Below, piece by piece: positions 8,643 to 58,562 of a DNA stretch of 64,000 bases; the first letter of the stretch is position 1; each line of letters starts with the position of its first letter. Below the pieces are notes generated by a model. It worked only from the letters and a program-made list of their open reading frames with translations. It was not told where the DNA came from and searched no databases. The DNA lies in contig BPKO01000004.1 in assembly GCA_026005175.1 (NCBI GenBank), forward strand, positions 124,001 through 188,000. Direction: 5' to 3'. The stretch is from Candidatus Tectimicrobiota bacterium (GTDB lineage: Bacteria > Tectomicrobia > Entotheonellia > Entotheonellales > Entotheonellaceae). Position numbers and translations under genes: made by a program.

Positions 8643-8807
8643 ATGGACAACCGCATTGTGATCGATCCCAAAATCCGGCACGGCAAGCCCGTCATTCGGG
8701 GCACCCGCGTTCCAGTCGTGCGTATGCTCGGCGGGCTGGCAGGAGGAATGACGGTTGAGGACATTACCCGGGAATATGGAGTCACAGAGGAAGACGGCTG
8801 GGGCTGA
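8643..8807 (+). pseudogene. DUF433-type antitoxin-like gene, 3' end replaced
   Basis: From ATG 8643 the product reads MDNRIVIDPKIRHGKPVIRG, then TRVPVVRMLGGLAGGMTVED and ITREYGVTEED: the DUF433 helix-turn-helix family, usually 70-80 residues and often paired with a DUF5615 PIN-like toxin. The family sequence stops after TEED at about 8794, exactly where a segment shared with 11356-11513 begins; only three foreign residues (GWG) follow before TGA. The last helix of the domain is therefore missing, and no DUF5615 partner follows. I infer a recombination breakpoint at 8794/8795 that joined this gene to a LuxR-type fragment. Confidence 0.8.
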
Positions 8808-8992
8808 CGCCGCGGGAAGCGGAAGTGCTATTCTGGGTGGCGCAGGGCAAAAGCAACGGCGAGATCGCGACGATTCTGGCGCTGCGGCCGCGCACGGTGG
8901 CCAAGCACCTGGAGCACATCTACGCCAAGCTGCTGGTGGAAAACCGCACCGCCGCCGCCCAGTGCGCCCTGGAGGTGCTGACGATGGGCTGA
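8795..8992 (+). pseudogene. LuxR-type helix-turn-helix fragment (copy 1 of duplicated segment)
   Basis: In the frame ending at the TGA 8990-8992 the sequence reads LGLTPREAEVLFWVAQGKSN, GEIATILALRPRTVAKHLEH, IYAKLLVENRTAAAQCALEV, LTMG: a complete GerE/LuxR DNA-binding domain including the usual C-terminal AAAQCALEVL tail. There is no start codon or effector domain; the segment begins abruptly inside the DUF433 gene. Bases 8795-8952 are nearly identical to 11356-11513 (three mismatches noted). Confidence 0.85.
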
Positions 8993-11193: not shown

Positions 11194-11520
11194 GCCACCC
11201 AGCCCGCCCACCGGGCGCGCCTTCTGCCAGCCCAGCCCCTGCGCCTGGCGCAGCCCGAGGGCTGCCTGGTGGTGCGCGCCCTGCCCGGCGAGGCCGGCAG
11301 CGTCACTTTGCTGCTCGAAGAGCACCGCCAGGCCCTCTCGCCAGAGCCGCTGCGCCGGCTGGGGCTGACGCCGCGGGAAGCGGAAGTGCTGTTCTGGGTG
11401 GCGCAGGGCAAGAGCAACGGCGAGATCGCCACGATTCTGGCGCTGCGGCCGCGCACGGTGGCCAAGCACCTGGAGCACATCTACGCCAAGCTGCTGGTGG
11501 AAAACCGCACCGCGGGCTGA
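11194..11520 (+). pseudogene. LuxR-family regulator lacking its N-terminus (copy 2 of duplicated segment)
   Basis: The frame is open from just after a stop at 11191-11193 and reads QPLRLAQPEGCLVVRALPGE, AGSVTLLLEEHRQALSPEPL, RRLGLTPREAEVLFWVAQGK, ending NRTAG and stop. This is the C-terminal half of a LuxR-type regulator with the short beta-strand region that precedes the GerE domain. No in-frame ATG or effector domain is present, and relative to copy 1 the last helix has lost 11 codons in frame (33 bases between ACCGC and GGGCTGA), so it is probably not functional. Bases 11356-11513 match 8795-8952. Confidence 0.8.
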
Positions 11521-20227: not shown

Positions 20228-20953
20228 CGTCTTGCTCCCGCTGCTGCGCGCGGCGCTGCTCGATGCGCCGCGCCAGGAGGATGCTGATGCCATAAAGAAA
20301 CAGGGTGGGCACCGCCATGAACGTCTGTGACACCACGTCGGGCGGGGTGAGAATGGCGGCCACGATGAAAGTGAGCACCACGGCGTAGCGAAAGTGCTTG
20401 ATCAGGGTGCGCGAGGAGAGAAGCTCCAGCTGGACGAGGAAAAATCACCACCATGGGCAGCTGGAAGACGACGCCAAAGGCGATCATCAGGCGCACGCAG
20501 AACGAGACGTAGTAGCCAACCGAGAGCTGCGCTTTGATGTCGGCACTCGAAAAGCTGAGAAGAAAGTCAATAATGATGGGCAGCAGGAAGTAAAACATCA
20601 TGCCGCCCAGGTAGAAGAGCACCGTCGAGCCGATAAGAAACGGCACCGTGTATTTTTTTTCGTGCTCGAGCAGGCCCGGGGCGACAAACTTCCAGAGCTG
20701 GTGCAGCACCACCGGCAAGGCAAGAAAAAGGCCGGCCAGGAAGCTGATTTTGAGGTAGGTGAGAAAGGCCTCGGCGGGGGCGATCATTTGCAGCGGCACC
20801 GTCACCCGCTTGCCAAACAGCGCCGGAGGGGGACTGCAGGGCGGCGATGATGTAATCTGACAGCGCGTAGCAGATAGAAAAGCCGACGGCAATGGCGAGG
20901 ACGCTGGCCAGCAGGCGGGAGCGCAGCTCGGCCAGGTGCGCCGTCAGGGGCAT
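20220..20953 (-). CDS. tatC: Sec-independent protein translocase TatC (two apparent frameshifts)
   Basis: Polytopic receptor of the twin-arginine translocase. Read from ATG 20953 (MPLTAHLAELRSRLLASVLA; a TTG at 20965 overlapping the tatB stop is an alternative). The frame breaks at a run of five Gs near 20825 (…IIAALQSP to ALFGKRVTVPLQMIAPAEAF) and at a run of five As near 20443 (…VVFQLPMVVIF to FLVQLELLSSRTLIKHF), ending [17 protein letters not shown]. Restoring one base at each run gives a full-length TatC of about 245 residues with six TM segments (FLAGLFLALPVVLHQLWKFV, YGISILLARR). Sequencing error is the simplest explanation, because an isolated tatB with broken tatC would be odd. Confidence 0.88.
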
Positions 20954-20961
20954 GGGGGGTG

Positions 20962-21246
20962 TCAACCATGGACGTCGCGCTCCTTGATCGCCGTCTGCAC
21001 GTCTACCAAGTCGGCGACGCGGCTGCGGATCTCCTGGGCCAGGGCGCGGTTGCGCTGCCCCTCTTCCTGCCGCTCCAGGGCGGCGATGTCGCGCTGGATG
21101 GTGCGCTGGAACTCTTCGCTGGCCCGCCGGAGCTGCGCGTAGGCACGCCCGAGCATGCGCGCCACTTCCGGCAGACGCTGTGGCCCAGAAACCAGCAGGG
21201 CCAGGATGAAGATCACAATGAGCTCGGGCAGGCCAATGCCAAACAT
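20962..21246 (-). CDS. tatB: Sec-independent translocase TatA/TatB protein
   Basis: 94 residues from ATG 21246: MFGIGLPELIVIFILALLVS, then GPQRLPEVARMLGRAYAQLR and a long amphipathic, charged helix (EEFQRTIQRDIAALERQEEG). One N-terminal TM with the polar residue Glu at position 8 and a hinge GP; length and position before tatC favour TatB over TatA. Forms the substrate receptor with TatC. First gene of tatB-tatC-pyrE-acyP. Confidence 0.9.
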   Translation of the reverse strand: MFGIGLPELIVIFILALLVSGPQRLPEVARMLGRAYAQLRRASEEFQRTIQRDIAALERQEEGQRNRALAQEIRSRVADLVDVQTAIKERDVHG

Positions 21247-21351
21247 CGTCCCCTCGCTCTCAGGGGAAAGCACACGGTACAGCGCTCAAGTGGTAGTCCA
21301 GTATAGCCCTCCCCTGCCGCCTCGGCAAGGGACTCCCCGGGCGTCTTGCCC

Positions 21352-21427: not shown

Positions 21428-22563
21428 ATGTGCGCAAGCGAAAGACGGACCCTGTCCCTGCTTGCCGCTCTGGCCGGGGCAATCGTGCTGGCCCTGGTCC
21501 CGGCTGCGGCGGCGCAGAAGATTACCTGGAAAATGCAGAGCACCTGGTCGGCAGGAGACTTCCACCACCAGAACCCCACTTTTCTGGTCAACGCGATCAA
21601 AGAGATGTCGGGGGGACGTCCTCAACATCGAGCTGTTGCCTGCTGGGGCGGTGGTGGCGCCCTTTGAGGTGCTTGACGCCGTCAACCGCGGCGTGCTGGA
21701 CGCCGGCCACGCCTGGCCCGGCTACTGGACGGGCAAGCACCCGGCGGCCACCCTCTTTGCCAGCGCCGCCGGCGGTCCCTTCGGGATGAACGCCGAGGAC
21801 TTCCTGGCCTGGATGTACCGCGGCGGGGGGCTGGAGCTCTACCACGAACTCCTCCAGAAGGAGCTGAAGCTCAACGTCGTGGCTTTCCCCACCTTCGGTG
21901 AGGTGCCCGAGCCCCTGGGCTGGTTTCCGCGGCCCATCAAGACCGTCGAAGAGTTCAAAGGGCTCAAGTTTCGCGCCGCGGGCATGGCCGCCGAGGTGTT
22001 CAAAGAAATCGGCATGACGGTGGTGACGCTGCCCGGAGGCCGAGATCATCCCCGCGCTGGAGCGCGGCATCATCGACGCTGCCGAGTACAGCGAGCCCAG
22101 CTCCGACCTGAGCATCGGCTTTCCCGAGATCCGCAAGTTCTACCACTTGCCGGGCATCCACCAGCCCACGGGGATCATGGAGTTCCTCATCAACAAGGAT
22201 CGCTGGGACGCCCTGCCCGAGGACTTAAAGGCGGTGGTGCGCTACGCGTCGATGGCCGCGGCCCTGGAGTTCACGCTCAAGATCCGGGACCTCAACAGCA
22301 GCGACCTCAAGAAAATCGTGGAAGAGAAAAAAGTGCAGGTCATCGAGACGCCGCGCGAGATCCTCGTCGAGGTGCTCAAAGCCTGGGACAAGGTGGCGGC
22401 GCGGCACGCCCAGGCCAATCCTTTCTTCAAGAAAGTGCTGGAGTCGCAGCGCGCCTGGGCCGAGCGCCTGGTGCCTTACCGGCGGGTGGCCGATCCCCCC
22501 TATGACCTGGCCGCCGACTACTACTGGGGCGAGATCAACCCCTACAAGGTAAGGAAGCCCTAA
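21428..22563 (+). CDS. TRAP transporter substrate-binding protein DctP, copy 1 (two frameshifts)
   Basis: Periplasmic solute receptor. Signal peptide SLLAALAGAIVLALVPAAAA, then QKITWKMQSTWSAGDFHHQN. The frame slips at a run of six Gs near 21610 (KEMSGG to DVLNIELLPAGAVVAPFEV) and near 22037 (VVTLPGG to EIIPALERGIIDAAEYSEP); with both repaired the product is about 378 residues and ends PPYDLAADYYWGEINPYK. DctP hallmarks: GLKFRAAGMAAEVFKEIG, the substrate-site arginine in that segment, and GIIDAAEYSEP. No DctQ/DctM membrane subunits are nearby, so it is an orphan receptor. It faces the VOC-solA-DUF1177-aroM-pepE operon and is similar to the receptor at 57432-58562. Confidence 0.88.
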
Positions 22564-26227: not shown

Positions 26228-26620
26228 TTACGGCGCCGCCGGCTGGCGCCGGGCATAGCTCACCGTGAGCACTTCCCAGACGTGGCCGTCGGCGTCTGTC
26301 CAGTAGAAGTTGCGCCCGCCCAGGCGCGTGTTGAGCCGCATGTCGTCGGGGCCCTGCGGCGTGCTGCGGTACTTGATGCCCGCTGCCTGCACGCGCGCCA
26401 GGATCTGGTCAAACTCCGCCTCGCTCACGTGAAAGCAGTAGTGGTGGCTCTCAAACGTCTCGCGCCGGGCAAAGTCCAGGGTCAGGGTGTCGTTCACGTA
26501 CACGGGGGTAAAGGGGCCCTGCGCCTCATCCCACGGCACGCCCAGCACCTCGGCCAGGGCACGCGCCGCTGCGACGGGATCGCGCGAAGGAACGATGAGA
26601 TGGTCGAGCTGGATGGTCAT
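26228..26620 (-). CDS. VOC-superfamily (glyoxalase/dioxygenase-like) protein
   Basis: 130 residues from ATG 26620 (MTIQLDHLIVPSRDPVAAAR). One beta-alpha-beta-beta-beta repeat pair with His7 (LDHLIVP), FHVSEAEFDQILARV, and NFYWTDADGHVWEVLTVSYA with the C-terminal Glu of the metal site. Cytoplasmic single-domain VOC protein; substrate cannot be told. It is the first gene of the operon with solA, DUF1177, aroM and pepE. A fragment of its 5' end recurs at about 30018-30066. Confidence 0.88.
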   Translation of the reverse strand: MTIQLDHLIVPSRDPVAAARALAEVLGVPWDEAQGPFTPVYVNDTLTLDFARRETFESHHYCFHVSEAEFDQILARVQAAGIKYRSTPQGPDDMRLNTRLGGRNFYWTDADGHVWEVLTVSYARRQPAAP

Positions 26621-26874
26621 GGCACACCTCCTGGGGCGCCGCTTGCGGGCGCCCGCCGGGCCATCCTCTGAAGCCCCCGGTGGTCCGCCTCCCTCCACCG
26701 GATGTCCAGGGCCAGGGCGTCCTCTAAAGCTTCCAGCAATTCCCGGGCAAAGGCAGGATACCGCAACGCTTTCTTCCTGACAATACTGGCCAGCGCATAA
26801 GCCAGCAGGGCGATCGCCTCGGCACGCCAGGGCTCCTGGAAGGCCACGGCGCCCAGGAGAGAAGCATCAACCAC
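26617..26874 (-). pseudogene. Decayed VapC toxin (copy 1 of duplicated vapBC)
   Basis: 85 residues: MVDASLLGAVAFQEPWRAEA, then ALLAYALASIVRKKALRYPA, FARELLEALEDALALDIRW, ending with unrelated sequence. Against the longer copy at 28906-29454 it lacks the segment EGMELYAPTLLAYE (about 38 bases), which removes the second acidic residue, and everything after DHRG including the third and fourth acidic residues, so it cannot form a PIN active site. Its 3' end runs into the VOC gene. Confidence 0.85.
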
Positions 26875-26879
26875 CCTGG

Positions 26880-27093
26880 GGCATCCCGGTCTTCCTGCAC
26901 CATGGCCACCGACTCATCCCCTGTGCGGACGCCCCGCTCCCGGACCCTCTGAACCAGCTCCTGGAGGCTCAGCTTCGGGGAAGCCAGGGCCTCCTCCAGG
27001 ATAGTCATCAGTTCCCCCTGCAGGGAACGGTGGTGGCGCCTCGCCCTCTGTCTGAGCTTCTCTGCCAGCTCGTCGGGGACGTTCTTGCATGGA
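26880..27093 (-). pseudogene. VapB antitoxin remnant (copy 1), start lost
   Basis: The frame reads NVPDELAEKLRQRARRHHRS, LQGELMTILEEALASPKLSL, QELVQRVRERGVRTGDESVA, MVQEDRD: a FitA/ribbon-helix-helix-type antitoxin nearly identical to the intact copy at 29435-29677. The first residues (MPVTLSIK in the intact copy) are replaced at about 27088 by unrelated DNA, and the only nearby ATG is out of frame. A two-base loss near 26882 also shifts the junction with vapC. Confidence 0.85.
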
Positions 27094-27260
27094 GATGACC
27101 TGCCCCCTAAAACTGCCGTGAAGCTTAGTCGATGCCCCTTGCTGGCTTCACCTCTGCTCTGTAATGCTGACCGCGGGCGCTCCCAGCAATCGGGTTGCCT
27201 TCCCTCCTGGGCAAGCGCCACTGGCTGCGAAGGCGTGAACCTGGCAGGGCGGGCGCCTAA
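27094..27260. other. Junction DNA in shuffled island
   Basis: No gene. Bases about 27174-27203 (GCGGGCGCTCCCAG…TCGGGTTGCC) resemble 29777-29806, the region upstream of the intact vapB copy, so part of this stretch is also duplicated upstream DNA of vapBC. Confidence 0.5.
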
Positions 27261-27587
27261 GGGCCACGCGCCCCACTGCCCTACCAGCGCTCAAGGGTGC
27301 GGTACTGCAGGTGGGCTGTGCGATGCGCTCTTCGCCGGCCAGATCGGCAATGGTGCACGCCACCTTGCAGATGCGGTCACAGGCGCGGGCGCTCAAGCCA
27401 AAGTGGCGCATGGCCTGCGCCAGCAGCTGCTCTCCGGCGCTGTCCAGCGCGCAGTAGCGCCGGATTTCGCGCACCCCCATGGCGGCGTTGTGGGGCAGCG
27501 CCTCGCCAAAGCGCGCCGGAAAGGTCGAGTGGTGGGGCGCGCGAAAGGGGTGGGTGGCCACCAGCGCCTTTTCGCAGCTGAGCAACT
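27261..27587 (-). pseudogene. comM fragment with internal deletion
   Basis: 27261 to about 27516 closely matches the 3' end of the intact comM gene (from 30975): on the minus strand it reads [53 protein letters not shown]. It is then joined to about 60 bases matching comM near 31680-31743 ([20 protein letters not shown]), with the roughly 450 bases between them in comM missing. A deletion of 10-15 bases near 27306 disrupts the C-terminal [11 protein letters not shown]. Not functional. Confidence 0.85.
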
Positions 27588-27771
27588 CGGCGTCCGGACG
27601 GATACGGTGACCAACTGGGAACTCGGCCGATCCCGTCCTGCCCTCCGGTACCGGCCGGAGCTTCTCGCCTTCCTGGGAGACAGTCGATGGCTTCCGGTCC
27701 CCCAGGCCGACCACCCACCTACGCTTGGTGAAGCCCTCAAGGAAATGCATCGGGAAAAGCGAGAGCCTTAA
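27583..27771 (+). pseudogene. XRE-type HTH protein fragment
   Basis: Plus-strand frame [55 protein letters not shown], stop at 27771. This resembles the recognition-helix half of XRE/Cro-type regulators found next to mobile elements (…TVxxWExGRxxP…YRPxIxxFLG…TLGExL). The N-terminal half is replaced by the comM fragment. Confidence 0.65.
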
Positions 27772-27789
27772 AGGCGGATCAAGGCCTTC

Positions 27790-28272
27790 TTACCGACCCA
27801 GCCGCTCCATCAGGGGAAGCTCAGGAAAATACGTCCGGTAATACCCCCGGTCCCGGGTGAGGAGTCGATCCGCCTGGGCCGCCGCATGGGCCCCGACGAG
27901 GAAGTCGCTGACCAGATGCTGCCGTCCCCGAAGCAGAGCGCCACAATGCCGGCAGGAGAGCCGCTGGACCCGGCCGCAAGAAGGGCAGAGCATCCCCCCG
28001 CCCCGACGCCGGGTGTAGGCCGCCCAGGCCCGCCCGGCCCGGGCGAGAGCCGTTGGCTCGGAAGGGGTGAACCGAAGGCCTGTCTCGGCCAGGAAGCGGT
28101 CCAGCTCCTCTTGCGTGGGGAAATGGGCGGCCAGCTCCGCATAGACGACCTCGCCGATCACCAGCTTCCCCTGCCGGAGGGCAGCTTCGAGGAGCGCTTG
28201 GGAGGCTTCCCCCTCCGGCGCATCCGGGATCAGGAGGTCCAGGAGGATGTTGGTATCAACGGCGGTGATCAT
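27790..28272 (-). CDS. PIN-domain toxin with inserted zinc ribbon
   Basis: 160 residues. PIN acidic residues: Asp6 ([15 protein letters not shown]), Glu46 ([12 protein letters not shown]), Asp123 ([20 protein letters not shown]) and Asp141 ([12 protein letters not shown]). Between the second and third, residues 90-112 insert a four-cysteine zinc ribbon ([19 protein letters not shown]; Cys96, 99, 107, 110). The ATG overlaps the antitoxin stop by 4 bases. Zinc-ribbon PIN proteins form a recognisable VapC subgroup; the ribbon may bind nucleic acid or stabilise the fold. About 80 bases of this gene, including the ribbon, recur in altered form at 29938-30017. Confidence 0.9.
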
Positions 28273-28496
28273 CGGCCGCGCATGGCTTCCAGGAGGGCGT
28301 CAGGGTCCTGTCCCTTCAGATGGCGGAGGTAGCCCCGGTACCGGGCGAAAGGGGACTCCCCCAGCCGCTTCTTGAGCCGGAGGCCTCCTTCGACCTCGAC
28401 GAACTCGACCTCGTCCCCGGGACGGAGGCCCAGGCGCTCGCGAAGGGCTTTGGGGATCGTGACCTGGCCTTTTGCCGTCATCCGGCTGGTGGGCAT
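28269..28496 (-). CDS. AbrB/MazE-type antitoxin
   Basis: 75 residues from ATG 28496: [40 protein letters not shown], a swapped-hairpin AbrB DNA-binding domain, followed by a C-terminal toxin-binding helix ([17 protein letters not shown]). It precedes the zinc-ribbon PIN toxin with a 4-base ATGA overlap. Expected to repress its own promoter, located right of 28496. Confidence 0.92.
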
Positions 28497-28557
28497 TGTC
28501 TTACCTCCAAAGTATGTCTGGAAAATCTTACCCAAGAGATACCCGGCTTCGCCCCGG

Positions 28558-28787
28558 CCGTCAACCGGAGGACGGGCCCAACCTTGTGGAGGAGGTCTTG
28601 GCCTACATGCCGCCCGAGCCCTGGCGGGGGAACCACGCCACGAACGTCTTGGAAGCGGCTGAATCGGGAACGGCGGCGCGACGTGGTGGGCATCTTCCCC
28701 AACATGGCGGCGGTCCTGCGCCTACTCGGGGCCCTGCTGGAGGAGCAGCAGGACGAGTGGCTGGCTATGGGTTCCTCCACACGGTGA
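28558..28787 (+). pseudogene. IS256-family transposase remnant (C-terminal end)
   Basis: Plus strand: [24 protein letters not shown] in one frame, then, after a one-base shift at about 28652, [39 protein letters not shown]. The string TNVLERLNRE…R(T)…VVGIFPN…LRL is diagnostic of the C-terminus of IS256/mutator-type transposases. The catalytic part and terminal repeats are absent. It marks past transposition in the island. Confidence 0.85.
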
Positions 28788-28905
28788 AGAACCCTCACGC
28801 GGCGATGTCGGCGGGGTTGCTCTGGTGTGGGGCCTCTTTGAGCGCGGCGCTGCACTCGCCGTCGCCTGGCTCGCTGGCCAGCCACACGCTGTCGTGGCCA
28901 CGGCC

Positions 28906-29454
28906 TCAAACTGGCTCCCCGCCCTGCGATGGCTTGGCCGCCTTCTGTTTGCCGCCACCCTTGTTGGCACCGCCGTAGCGTTGCTCAACGACCGCGCTAC
29001 CGTCCGCTGCCATACTGCCGCGACGGCCCCGCCCGCGGCCAGATAGCAGCCAGCGTGCGCCCTCCCTGGCAGCCTGGCCTCCTGACTCCTGGGGCACCCT
29101 CTGAAGCACCTGGTCGAAAGTCACCAAGGGGATGCCCAGGGCACGGGCTAGATACAGATAGCTGGCGTCATAGGTGCTTAGACCCGTGGCTAGGGAGAGC
29201 GCCACCACACCCCGGTGGTCCACCTCCATCCACCGGATGTCCAGGGCCAGGGCGTCCGCCAAGGCTTCCAGCAGTTCCCGGGCAAAGGCAGGATACCGCA
29301 ACGCTTTCTTCCTGGCAATGCTGGCCAGCTCATAGGCCAGCAGGGTGGGGGCGTATAGCTCCATACCCTCCAGCAGGGCGACCGCCTCGGCCGACCTGGG
29401 CTCCTGGAAGGCCACCGCTCCCAGGAGGGAAGCGTCAACCACCCTGGCGGGCAT
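28906..29454 (-). CDS. VapC-family PIN toxin (copy 2), with run-on C-terminus
   Basis: 182 residues. PIN core: ARVVDASLLGAVAFQEP (Asp7), PTLLAYELASIARKKALRYP (Glu42), LSTYDASYLYLARALGIPLV (Asp96), TFDQVLQRVP (Asp114). The domain ends near residue 122; the last 60 residues (Gly, Arg, Ala-rich) look like translation into non-coding DNA, so the original stop was probably lost, perhaps when the 3' flank was replaced. It overlaps vapB by 20 bases. All four acidic residues are present, so the toxin may be active. Confidence 0.85.
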   Translation of the reverse strand: MPARVVDASLLGAVAFQEPRSAEAVALLEGMELYAPTLLAYELASIARKKALRYPAFARELLEALADALALDIRWMEVDHRGVVALSLATGLSTYDASYLYLARALGIPLVTFDQVLQRVPQESGGQAAREGARWLLSGRGRGRRGSMAADGSAVVEQRYGGANKGGGKQKAAKPSQGGEPV

Positions 29455-29677
29455 CCCGGTCCTCCCTTACCATGGCCACCGATTCATCCTCTGTACGGAC
29501 GCCCCGCTCCCGGACCCTCTGGACCAGCTCCTGGAGGCTCAGCTTCGGAGAAGCCAGGGCCTCCTCCAGGATAGTCATCAGTTCCCCCTGCAGGGAACGG
29601 TGGTGGCGCCTCGCCCTCTGTCTGAGCTTCTCTACCAGCTCGTCGGGGACGTTCTTGATAGAGAGGGTGACCGGCAT
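29435..29677 (-). CDS. VapB/FitA-type antitoxin (copy 2)
   Basis: 80 residues from ATG 29677: MPVTLSIKNVPDELVEKLRQ, RARRHHRSLQGELMTILEEA, the ribbon-helix-helix FitA-like DNA-binding domain, then LQELVQRVRERGVRTEDESV and a short tail. Its 3' end overlaps vapC. A decayed near-identical copy lies at 26880-27093. Confidence 0.92.
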   Translation of the reverse strand: MPVTLSIKNVPDELVEKLRQRARRHHRSLQGELMTILEEALASPKLSLQELVQRVRERGVRTEDESVAMVREDRDARQGG

Positions 29678-29937
29678 AGCGTATCCTCCATTATGGATAT
29701 GTTTTCCGGTAAGGAGAAGCAGGGAAAGTTCGCCGATGACAAGGCCCGCAAAGCCCTGGTGCAGCCTCTGCCCTGCGGGCGCTCCCAGCGCTCGGGTTGC
29801 CCTCCCTGAGCCCACCGCGCACCTTTTCAAGGGCAGCCCGTCCCCCCGGGAGCCGGCTGCATTCGAGAGCCGTGGTCGGCATGTGGTGGCAGCTCATGCC
29901 ATGGGTGGGGGGATAATCAGCCCGGGCACGGGTTCCT
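29678..29937. other. Upstream region of vapBC copy 2
   Basis: About 260 bases without a gene. The minus-strand promoter/operator of vapBC copy 2 must lie at the left end (a palindromic A/T-rich stretch ATCCTCCATTATGGATAT at about 29685-29702). Bases 29777-29806 resemble 27174-27203. Confidence 0.45.
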
Positions 29938-30066
29938 CGACCCGACTGCAAGAGGGGCACAACAGCCCTCTACCCCGGCGCCGGATGTAGGCCGCCCAGG
30001 CCTGTCCGGCCCGGGCGCACGCCGCCGCGACGGGATCGCGCGAAGCAACGACGAGATAGTCGAGCT
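29938..30066 (-). pseudogene. Composite of a zinc-ribbon PIN fragment and a VOC-gene fragment
   Basis: 29938-30017 is a diverged copy of 27966-28045 (middle of the zinc-ribbon PIN gene; shared core GGATGTAGGCCGCCCAGGCC versus GGGTGTAGGCCGCCCAGGCC). It continues directly into 30018-30066, which resembles 26567-26615, the 5' part of the VOC gene (GACGGGATCGCGCGAAG…GAGAT.GTCGAGCTG). The two parents are separated by about 1.4 kb elsewhere in the island. Non-coding. Confidence 0.75.
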
Positions 30067-30075
30067 GAAAAGACG

Positions 30076-30786
30076 TTATTCCGTGGCCAGCGTCTGTCGC
30101 CGTTTGCGGTGGTATTCGAACAACTTCATGTTGGCCGCGGCGATGGTCTGGGCCTCCTCGGCAATTCTGGGCAGGTCTCTTCCAGGAACAGCCACATACA
30201 GTTCGTCCTCACCCACGTCGGTATAGACGCGGTTTCCGATACATCCCGTACTGGCCACAACGCCGTGGGCGAGGGCGGCAGGAAGCGCCATACACGTCGG
30301 GCGGCCGAAAAGCGGAACCTGTGTCCCAACCCCTGCGCGCAAGGCCGCCTCTTGTAGGAGCATCATGCGTCCGGGCCGACCCGAAAAGAGCACAACGTCC
30401 GGCTCGAGCGGCGTATCCCCAAGAGGCGCGTAGATCACGACGCCAGGTGGCTGAGGCAAGCGCAGGAGCCCGGGAACCTCGTCCCCCTTGAGGTAGCCGA
30501 TCCCGACCATGAAGGAGAGCGTCTGGTCGAGCTCTTGAGCGCGGTCCTGTGGGAGGGAGATGTGGTGGGTATAGCAGCCAATCGGGCAGTTGTAATGGTC
30601 GCTGGGAACGGTATAGAAGGTCCGCCCCCCTGCGGCAATCCGCCAGAAGCTGCACCCTGAAGGCTCTGCGCCGGTGAACTTGGGTACCCCCGCAGGGGGG
30701 AGCTCCCGGAACGAAACCGCCACTGGGCGTCGCTGAAGGTTAAGGAGCTCAGAGAGCCGCTGCTCTATGAGCCGATAGTCCGTCAT
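30076..30786 (-). CDS. DUF169-family protein
   Basis: 236 residues from ATG 30786 (MTDYRLIEQRLSELLNLQRR, PVAVSFRELPPAGVPKF). DUF169 proteins carry several conserved cysteines; here SGCSFWRIAAGGRTFYTV, YNCPIGCYTHH, FGRPTCMALPAAL and VASTGCIGNRVYTDVGEDEL are visible, with CxxxC and isolated Cys that could hold a metal or Fe-S centre. No signal peptide. Function unknown in the literature known to me. It stands alone at the right side of the shuffled island; base composition is slightly less GC-rich than that of the core genes. Confidence 0.87.
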   Translation of the reverse strand: MTDYRLIEQRLSELLNLQRRPVAVSFRELPPAGVPKFTGAEPSGCSFWRIAAGGRTFYTVPSDHYNCPIGCYTHHISLPQDRAQELDQTLSFMVGIGYLKGDEVPGLLRLPQPPGVVIYAPLGDTPLEPDVVLFSGRPGRMMLLQEAALRAGVGTQVPLFGRPTCMALPAALAHGVVASTGCIGNRVYTDVGEDELYVAVPGRDLPRIAEEAQTIAAANMKLFEYHRKRRQTLATE

Positions 30787-30992
30787 CTTAGCGCCGCCCT
30801 CCTCGACCGCAATCCCGAAGCACCAGCGCTCGCGCCGGGCCTTGCCGTGTGTCACAGATTTACCCGACTTCGCCCGCAGCCGTCAACCAACCTCCGGTTG
30901 CCACTTGCCAAATCCGAGGACAAAATAGCAGCCCTTTCTGGCAGATTATCGGCGGTGGCAGTGCGGGCACTTGAGGGCCACGCCCCACTGCC

Positions 30993-32513
30993 CTACCAGC
31001 GCTCAAGGGTGCGGTACTGAATGGCTTCGGCCAGGTGGGCTGCTGCGATGCGCTCTTCGCCGGCCAGATCGGCAATGGTGCGCGCCACCTTGCAGATGCG
31101 GTCACAGGCGCGGGCACTCAAGCCAAAGTGGCGCATGGCCTGCGCCAGCAGCTGCTCCCCGGCGCTGTCCAGCTTGCAGTAGCGCCGGATTTCGCGCACC
31201 CCCATGGCGGCGTTGTGGGGCAGCGCGCCGCCAAAGCGCGCCCGCTGCCGTGCGCGCGCCGCGTTGACGCGGGCGCGGATGGCGGCCGAGGGCTCGCCTG
31301 GCGCCGCGGTGCGCAGCTCGGCATAAGGCACCGGCGGCACTTCCACATGCAGGTCGATGCGGTCGAGCAGGGGACCGGAGAGGCGGGCGCGGTAGCGCTG
31401 CAGCTGCTGCGTCGAGCAAAGGCACGTGCGCTGCGGGTCGCCGCGCCAGCCACAGGGACAGGGATTCATTGCCGCCACCAGCATGAAGCGCGCCGGGAAG
31501 GTGACGCTAAGCGCCGCCCGCGCAATGGTGACCTGGGCGTCTTCGAGGGGCTGGCGCAGCACTTCCAGGGTGCTGCGGCGAAACTCCGGTAGCTCGTCAA
31601 GGAACAAGACGCCGTTGTGCGCCAGGCTCACCTCGCCCGGAGTGGGCATGGCGCCGCCGCCCACCAGCCCAGCGTCAGAAGTTGAGTGGTGGGGCGCGCG
31701 AAAAGGGCGGGTGGCCACCAGCGCCTTTTCGCGGCTGAGCAACCCGGCTACGCTGTGGATCTTCGAGGTCTCGATGGCTTCTTCCAGGGTCATGTCGGGC
31801 AGGATGGAGGGCAGGCGCCGCGCCATCAAGGACTTGCCCGCTCCAGGCGGGCCGATGAGAAGCACATTGTGGCCACCGGCTGCTGCTACTTCTAGGGCCC
31901 GCTTGACGTGCGCCTGCCCCCGCACGTCGGCAAAGTCCTCCTCGTAGACGGCCGTGCGGCGAAACAGCGCCGCCACGTCGCACACCGTTGGCGTGAGGGT
32001 CTCGCTGCCGGTAAAAAAGCCCACGGCCTGCGCCAGGGTGGCCACGCCAAACACCGGCGCCACGCCGCTTACGGCCGCCTCGGTGGCGTTTTCCGCCGGC
32101 ACCAGGAGGCCGGCCACCTCGGCCTGGCGCGCGGCAAAGCTCATCGGCATCACCCCGGCCACCGCTTTTACCCGCCCGTCTAGCGACAGCTCCCCCAGCA
32201 CCAGGTAGCGGTGCAGGGCGTCGCCGGGCAAGTAGCCGGCAGCGCGCAGAATGCCCAGGGCAATGGGCAAGTCAAAGGCGGTGCCTTCCTTGCGCAGGTG
32301 GGCCGGCGCCAGGTTGACGGTGATGCGCTTGAGGGGAAAGGGAAAGCCGCTGTTGGCCAGCGCCGCTTTGACCCGCTCGCGGCTTTCGCGAATGGCGGCG
32401 TCAGGCAGGCCCACGGTGGTAAACGTGGGCAAGCCGGACGCCAGGTCGACTTCGACTTCTACCAGATGGGCCTCGACGCCCAGCAGCGTGCTGCTCAGGA
32501 CCTTGGCCAGCAC
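30993..32513 (-). CDS. comM: ComM/YifB-family Mg-chelatase-like AAA+ ATPase
   Basis: 506 residues, full length. Hexameric helicase that extends branch migration during natural transformation. Order: N-terminal Lon-like domain ([40 protein letters not shown]), Walker A at about 220 ([20 protein letters not shown]), Walker B ([20 protein letters not shown]), the four-Cys NPCPCGW…TCLCS motif and the C-terminal Mg-chelatase domain ([20 protein letters not shown]). Pieces of this gene are found as a decayed fragment at 27261-27587. Its presence hints at, but does not prove, competence for DNA uptake. Confidence 0.95.
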
Positions 32514-57431: not shown

Positions 57432-58562
57432 ATGCAGAAAACCGTGTCTGCCCCCTTTGCGCTGGCCGTTCTGTTTGGCCTCCTCCTGGGCAGCCTGGAG
57501 CCGGCAGCGGCCCAGGCGCCCTCCCAGCCCATCACCCTGAAGGTTCAGGCCAGCTGGGGCCCGGCCATTCGCCACTTCGATGCCTTTAATGCCATCTTTG
57601 TCGAGCGGGTGGCCAAGCTCTCTGGCGGCCGGGTAAAAATCGAACAGCTCGCCGGCGGCGCGGTCGTTGGGCCCCTGGAGGTGCTGGACGCCACCAGCCG
57701 CGGCGTCATCGACGGGGCCGTGACGTACGCGCCCTACTGGGTGGGCAAACATAAGGCGGCCGTCCTCTTTGGCGGGGCGCCCGGGGGGCCGTTTGGCATG
57801 GATCCGACCGACTTCGTGGGCTGGCTGATCGACGGCGGGGGCCTTGAGCTCTACCGGGAACTGTATCAGGAGGTGCTGAAGCTAAACGTGGTGCCCTTCC
57901 CGATCATGTCCCAGAACCCCCAGGTCTTTGGGTGGTTCAAGCGGCCGATCCGCGGCTGGGAGGACCTCAAGGGCCTCAAGATCCGCATGTCGGGCATTGC
58001 TGCCGACATCTACAAAGAAGCGGGCATGGCCGTGGTCACCCTGGCGGCAGGGGAGATCCTCCCGGCAGCCGAGCGGGGGGTAATCGATGCCGCCGAAATC
58101 CAGGGCGGCGACCCGGACCTCAAGCTGGGCTTCCACCAGGTGTGGAAGTACCACTACGCCCCCGGGATGGCCGAAGCCAACAACGTCCAGGAACTGGTCA
58201 TCAACAAGGGGGTGTGGGACAGGCTGGGGCCGCAGCTTCAAGAAGTCATCCGCTCGGCGGTGATGGAGAGCCTGCTGCGGAGCGCTTTCTTTTTCAGGCG
58301 GATCGATGCCGAGGCTTACCAGGAGCTGGTTCACAAGCACGGCGTCGAAGTCCGCCAGACCCCTTCCGACATCCTCCTCAAAACCCTGGAGGTCTGGGAC
58401 AAGATGGTCGCCGAGGAGTCGGCCCGGGACCCCTTCTTCAAGAAAGTGATCGAATCCCAGCGGCGGTATGCGGGCCTCATTGTGCCTTACCGCCTCTCGA
58501 TCTGGCCTCCCTATGACTTGGCGGGCAACTATTACTGGAAGGACGCGGTTTATCGGAAGTAA
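57432..58562 (+). CDS. TRAP transporter substrate-binding protein DctP, copy 2
   Basis: 376 residues. Signal peptide FALAVLFGLLLGSLEPAAAQ; DctP body with QPITLKVQASWGPAIRHFDA, AGGAVVGPLEVLDATSRGVI, LKGLKIRMSGIAADIYKEAG (binding-site Arg) and ERGVIDAAEIQGGDPDL, ending IWPPYDLAGNYYWKD. Similar along its length to the frameshifted copy at 21428. No TRAP membrane subunits follow; 57 bases downstream an ABC-type receptor begins, so this TRAP receptor seems to share an operon with a different transporter class. It could be a secondary receptor, or be served by DctQM encoded elsewhere. Confidence 0.92.
   Translation: MQKTVSAPFALAVLFGLLLGSLEPAAAQAPSQPITLKVQASWGPAIRHFDAFNAIFVERVAKLSGGRVKIEQLAGGAVVGPLEVLDATSRGVIDGAVTYAPYWVGKHKAAVLFGGAPGGPFGMDPTDFVGWLIDGGGLELYRELYQEVLKLNVVPFPIMSQNPQVFGWFKRPIRGWEDLKGLKIRMSGIAADIYKEAGMAVVTLAAGEILPAAERGVIDAAEIQGGDPDLKLGFHQVWKYHYAPGMAEANNVQELVINKGVWDRLGPQLQEVIRSAVMESLLRSAFFFRRIDAEAYQELVHKHGVEVRQTPSDILLKTLEVWDKMVAEESARDPFFKKVIESQRRYAGLIVPYRLSIWPPYDLAGNYYWKDAVYRK

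Follow-up and report, generated by a model that had tools for sequence, protein, structure and literature searches.

The locus between tatA and comM of a Candidatus Tectimicrobiota bacterium raises the question of whether gene fragments that lie close to their own parents come from shuffling of neighbouring sequence or from ordinary duplication and decay. The window is a stretch of 64,000 nucleotides (assembly GCA_026005175.1, contig BPKO01000004.1, positions 124,001-188,000 of the forward strand), and all positions below are counted in it. A literature search for context found nothing specific to the tatA-comM locus.

Repeats of the locus and the order of their blocks

Self-BLAST of the window between 25 and 34 kb returns exactly six repeat pairs, all of them direct, with E-values from 1e-156 to 1e-6. 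They are the vapCB pair (26675-27095 and 29210-29664, E 1e-156), the comM 3' end (27242-27517 and 30956-31242, E 8e-115), the comM middle (27524-27591 and 31681-31748, 93%), an upstream scrap (27173-27205 and 29775-29807, 91%), a PIN pair (27964-28045 and 29936-30017, 83%), and a VOC pair (26551-26611 and 30007-30067, 89%). The original prediction proposed a dot plot and listed vapBC with a decayed copy, pieces of comM, of the PIN gene and of the VOC gene, and matching upstream bits; the self-alignment recovers all of these, far above chance and with essentially the same coordinates. The pieces are local duplicates, since a whole-genome search finds close copies of them nowhere else. Outside the locus, DNA of the island matches only the end of an IS256-type transposase, in two places, and an AbrB gene, the latter weakly; no close copies are found there. 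The vapC, zinc-ribbon PIN and VOC proteins have no further close copies in the genome, so an origin of the scraps from dispersed paralogs is rejected.

In plus-strand order, copy A is formed by vapC' (26658), vapB', the scrap (27173), the comM 3' end (27242-27517), and the comM middle (27524-27591). Copy B is formed by vapC (29091), vapB, the scrap (29775), the PIN''/VOC'' fusion and DUF169, the comM 3' end (30956), and the comM middle (31681-31748). The main blocks (vapC-vapB, scrap, comM 3' end and comM middle) have identical order and strand in both copies, and the offset between matching blocks only rises (2535, 2570, 2602, 3714 and 4157), so copy A has lost DNA stepwise relative to copy B. 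The locus had been described as a shuffled island, a name that does not suit its large blocks: their collinearity on the same strand rules out random shuffling, and one duplication followed by deletions explains them. Copy A (about 26658-27591) thus very probably arose from a single local and direct duplication of copy B (about 29091-31748) and was then shortened by deletions. The divergence of the vapBC and comM pieces is indistinguishable (29/420 versus 16/342, p 0.22), and this equality, within error, fits a single event. The locus is a case of ordinary duplication and decay, not of a special shuffling machinery.

Table 1. Features of the tatA-comM locus, with positions in the window
Feature	Position	Strand	Evidence
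VOC (glyoxalase-like) gene, intact; parent to the VOC'' scrap	26228..26620	-	ORF; weak Glyoxalase match, E 0.0075; single copy in genome
Copy A, decayed vapC' and vapB'	26658..27095	-	Self-alignment; FitA-like RHH still detectable, E 1e-10
Copy A, upstream scrap	27173..27205	-	91% to 29775-29807
Copy A, comM 3' end and ~30 bp of downstream non-coding DNA	27242..27517	-	Self-alignment; 12-bp deletion, small indels
Copy A, piece from the middle of comM, brought next to the 3' end by deletion(s)	27524..27591	-	Self-alignment
XRE-like remnant directly beside comM'; putative new joint created by the duplication	27592..27768	+	Reading only
PIN-domain toxin with zinc-ribbon-like insert	27790..28272	-	PIN E 2e-9; weak zinc-ribbon match, E 0.01
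AbrB/MazE-type antitoxin, partner of the PIN gene	28269..28535	-	MazE_antitoxin E 3e-13
IS256 transposase C-terminal remnant	28608..28784	+	Transposase_mut E 5e-8, profile 340-377 of 379
Copy B, vapC, PIN domain complete; ORF continues to 28906	29091..29454	-	PIN E 5e-12
Copy B, vapB (FitA-like ribbon-helix-helix antitoxin)	29435..29689	-	E 2e-13
Copy B, upstream scrap	29775..29807	-	Self-BLAST
PIN''/VOC'' fusion scrap; parents overlap at 30007-30024	29936..30067	-	83% and 89% to parents
DUF169 gene, in copy B only	30076..30855	-	DUF169 E 6e-21
Intact comM, conserved position beside polyprenyl synthase gene	30993..32513	-	Mg_chelatase E 4e-97; synteny

The sole break in block order is the PIN''/VOC'' scrap, in which PIN precedes VOC, the reverse of the parental order. 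At its joint the parents agree at 14/18 positions (about 2 in 10,000 for random sequence). This scrap is probably older than the main duplication because it is more diverged (21/143 versus 45/762, p 0.0007), and it is best taken as a separate microhomology joint. A tandem duplication of a VOC-to-PIN segment would leave a PIN-before-VOC joint, and later losses hide whether this was so.

Direction of change and ends of the deletions

The comM fragment (comM') was aligned piecewise with the intact comM and with comM of three family members as outgroups. In comM', arginine is changed to cysteine twice and to histidine once at positions where 3/3 outgroups have arginine, lysine is changed to alanine where 2/3 have lysine, and there are small indels. 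About three changes can be assigned to the side of the intact comM and these look silent, so amino-acid changes at conserved residues are found in the fragment only. The non-coding DNA downstream of comM is duplicated as well, and this common DNA together with the fragment-side changes identifies comM' as a decayed copy of the comM of this genome. It is closest to that gene, and a comM search of genome contigs returns only distant relatives, with 50-61% identity.

Two deletions end cleanly at short repeats. In comM', 252 bp are absent between two 9-bp direct repeats of AAGCGCGCC (31234 and 31486), and in vapC', which also has a deletion of ~95 bp and is followed by a vapB' with altered N-terminus, 33 bp are absent between two 9-bp direct repeats of CCAGCAGGG (29337 and 29370). 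For breakpoints paired at random in copy B, at least 9 bp are shared in about 1 of 10,000 cases. The original prediction of short-homology joins, with comM as its example, agrees with these 9 bp in comM' and vapC' and with the PIN/VOC joint; the repeat it placed at 31235 and 31488 is real, but the exact shared stretch is the one given above. After the 252-bp deletion, comM' has a second loss that extends up to 31681, and between the two the short stretch GGGAAGGT (31495-31502) can still be made out, with a mismatch. The other losses (~95 bp in vapC', 1.1 kb before comM' and 12 bp in comM') show no clear repeat of 9-bp length at their ends.

These observations are consistent with a mechanism in which the segment from about vapC into mid-comM would have been duplicated once, directly and locally. 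Copy B, at the conserved comM position, would have retained a working comM, and copy A, released from selection, would have accumulated point changes and lost DNA by deletion, in two cases with a 9-bp direct repeat at each clean end; replication slippage is the mechanism that we infer for the deletions. The best-fitting unit would be 27592-31748 (4157 bp), its exact limits, like the timing, being a reconstruction, and the novel joint would be the equivalent of comM position 31748 against 27592, exactly where comM' meets the XRE-like remnant. At this proposed joint the comM end GAGCAACCCGGC reads GAGCAACTCGGC, which would also encode Glu-Gln-Leu-Gly of an XRE helix, a possible homology seen by eye. 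The 1.5 kb between 27591 and 29091 may belong to the unit or have been inserted later. Since the stretch with XRE, PIN, AbrB and IS lies between the copies, and no close relative shows an intermediate state, a tandem model in its simple form has to be supplemented by an insertion or by further losses: later loss of this stretch from the left copy would bring copy A beside VOC, as observed, and the proposed unit would also require later loss of the DUF169 stretch of copy A.

The locus resembles known cases of tandem duplication and pseudogene decay via deletions between short direct repeats (replication slippage), as the copies are direct, collinear and local, one is kept and one decayed, and 9-bp repeats are present at two clean deletion ends. 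It differs from a plain case by the second toxin-antitoxin pair and the IS scrap between the copies and by the older PIN/VOC joint superimposed on them. It shows cleanly how a duplicated toxin-antitoxin segment decays next to a conserved gene, the intact copy serving as an internal control, and gives no evidence for a new mechanism.

Alternative origins of the locus

The original prediction also suggested an actively hypervariable site that re-uses neighbouring sequence via microhomology joins. In two complete genomes from another genus of the family, the order is pyrE-tatC-tatA-comM-polyprenyl synthase-maf-fusA and the tatA-comM gap is ~150 bp, while it is ~9.7 kb in the window, where the interval holds a split TRAP-type binding protein, an S51 peptidase, AroM, DUF1177, an FAD oxidoreductase (located elsewhere in the genome in relatives), VOC, the toxin-antitoxin pairs and DUF169. 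This difference in the gap, a minimum of two events at this place that differ in age, and the short homologies at the clean joints are in favour of such a site. It is nevertheless improbable, since the large blocks are collinear, ordinary slippage deletion leaves the same signatures, and the two complete relatives, both of another genus, carry no trace of the insert. A wider form of the idea, in which the interval would be prone to recombination in this lineage, duplicating and trimming its neighbours time after time via short homologies and making new toxin-antitoxin arrangements between strains, is very unlikely.

Copy A could instead be left over from an element, mobile or integrative, that brought a comM fragment with it or inserted at one, leaving comM ends in direct repeat. 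The gene is a known target of Tn7-like elements, such as Tn6022, and of Tsy (PMC10293859), comM of one relative is interrupted by a Tn7-like transposon, and an IS256 scrap lies within the region. Such an origin is quite unlikely, because comM is intact in the window, neither a tns nor an integrase gene is present among the proteins scanned, the duplication takes in vapBC and enters comM without a defined end or target duplication, and the fragment is closest to comM of its own genome. An element carrying comM is rejected for want of element ends and, in the proteins scanned, of an integrase or transposase set, and because of the intact comM. IS256 as driver is unsupported, since just the last 38 profile positions are left and they are not located at a repeat boundary. 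The likeness to Tn6022/AbaR-type Tn7-like insertions in comM (PMC10293859) is that comM is involved and that a relative carries such an element in it; here, in contrast, comM is uninterrupted, no transposon is present, and the comM fragment comes from duplication.

In that relative (genome G003), the features expected of a Tn7-like insertion of the Tn6022 type (interrupted comM, TnsA/B/C and TniQ genes, 5-bp target duplication) are all found, while the window, with its intact comM, does not show them. The comM of G003 is split by a ~26-kb element (L116:7989 to L117:15942, contig C1 about 3937990-3963942) with TnsA, TnsB-like, TniB-type and TniQ proteins, ends TGTCAG...CTGACA, and a 5-bp target duplication, GCGGC. 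Among the cargo are an AAA ATPase (HEC-01A-like), an OloB match and a ResIII helicase. A 542-aa zinc-ribbon-rich protein of the element (L117:9654-11282), which has no Pfam match, might be a TnsF-type target selector, a guess made by eye. Insertions of this sort are already known, and this one did not give rise to the comM fragment in the window. With it, the known targeting of comM by Tn7-like elements extends to a member of this sparsely sampled family.

An assembly artefact, by chimeric joins or collapsed repeats, is extremely unlikely, for although the assembly is rated only 77% complete and the neighbouring tatC has homopolymer frameshifts resembling base-call errors, the copies differ by 5-17% with polarised and coding-aware changes, there are no Ns at 19-37 kb, the repeats are shorter than 500 bp, and the region lies inside contig C4, away from its end.

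Toxin-antitoxin pairs and neighbouring genes

Profile search finds two VapBC-type pairs, PIN with FitA-like RHH (28906-29689) and PIN with MazE (27790-28535), in which toxin and antitoxin genes adjoin and overlap. VapBC-type modules combine a PIN toxin with a FitA-like or AbrB/MazE-like antitoxin, as do these two predicted pairs; the differences here are that one extra copy is decayed and that the second PIN toxin has a zinc-ribbon-like insert. The vapBC of copy B had been called intact, and its PIN domain is indeed complete, but the vapC ORF (28906-29454) overruns the domain by ~60 residues, which suggests that the native stop was lost. In the second pair, the zinc-ribbon-like segment sits inside the domain of the PIN toxin (27790-28272), which has the AbrB/MazE antitoxin as partner. 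A relative of this toxin in genome G001 (C130:1715-2098) matches in two pieces flanking residues 95-120, and may be a version without the insert. Of the predicted IS256 and XRE remnants, IS256 is confirmed by its profile match, but the XRE-like remnant is plausible by eye only, with no Pfam match at E<=0.05 and no relative in 41 genomes.

Compared with two relatives, tatC (20230-21273) has additional bases in runs of C and of T that break its reading frame, and these breaks are likely base-call errors. Because of these runs and of the incomplete assembly, single-base frameshifts may be sequencing errors; neither the larger deletions nor the divergence between copies is of that type. The TRAP-type (DctP) binding protein (21462-22563) is split over two frames and has a paralogous stretch at ~57636-58096 (69% DNA identity). 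Elsewhere in the window, a 158-bp direct repeat is found at 8795-8952 and 11356-11513, with 98% identity between its copies, which are 2.6 kb apart.
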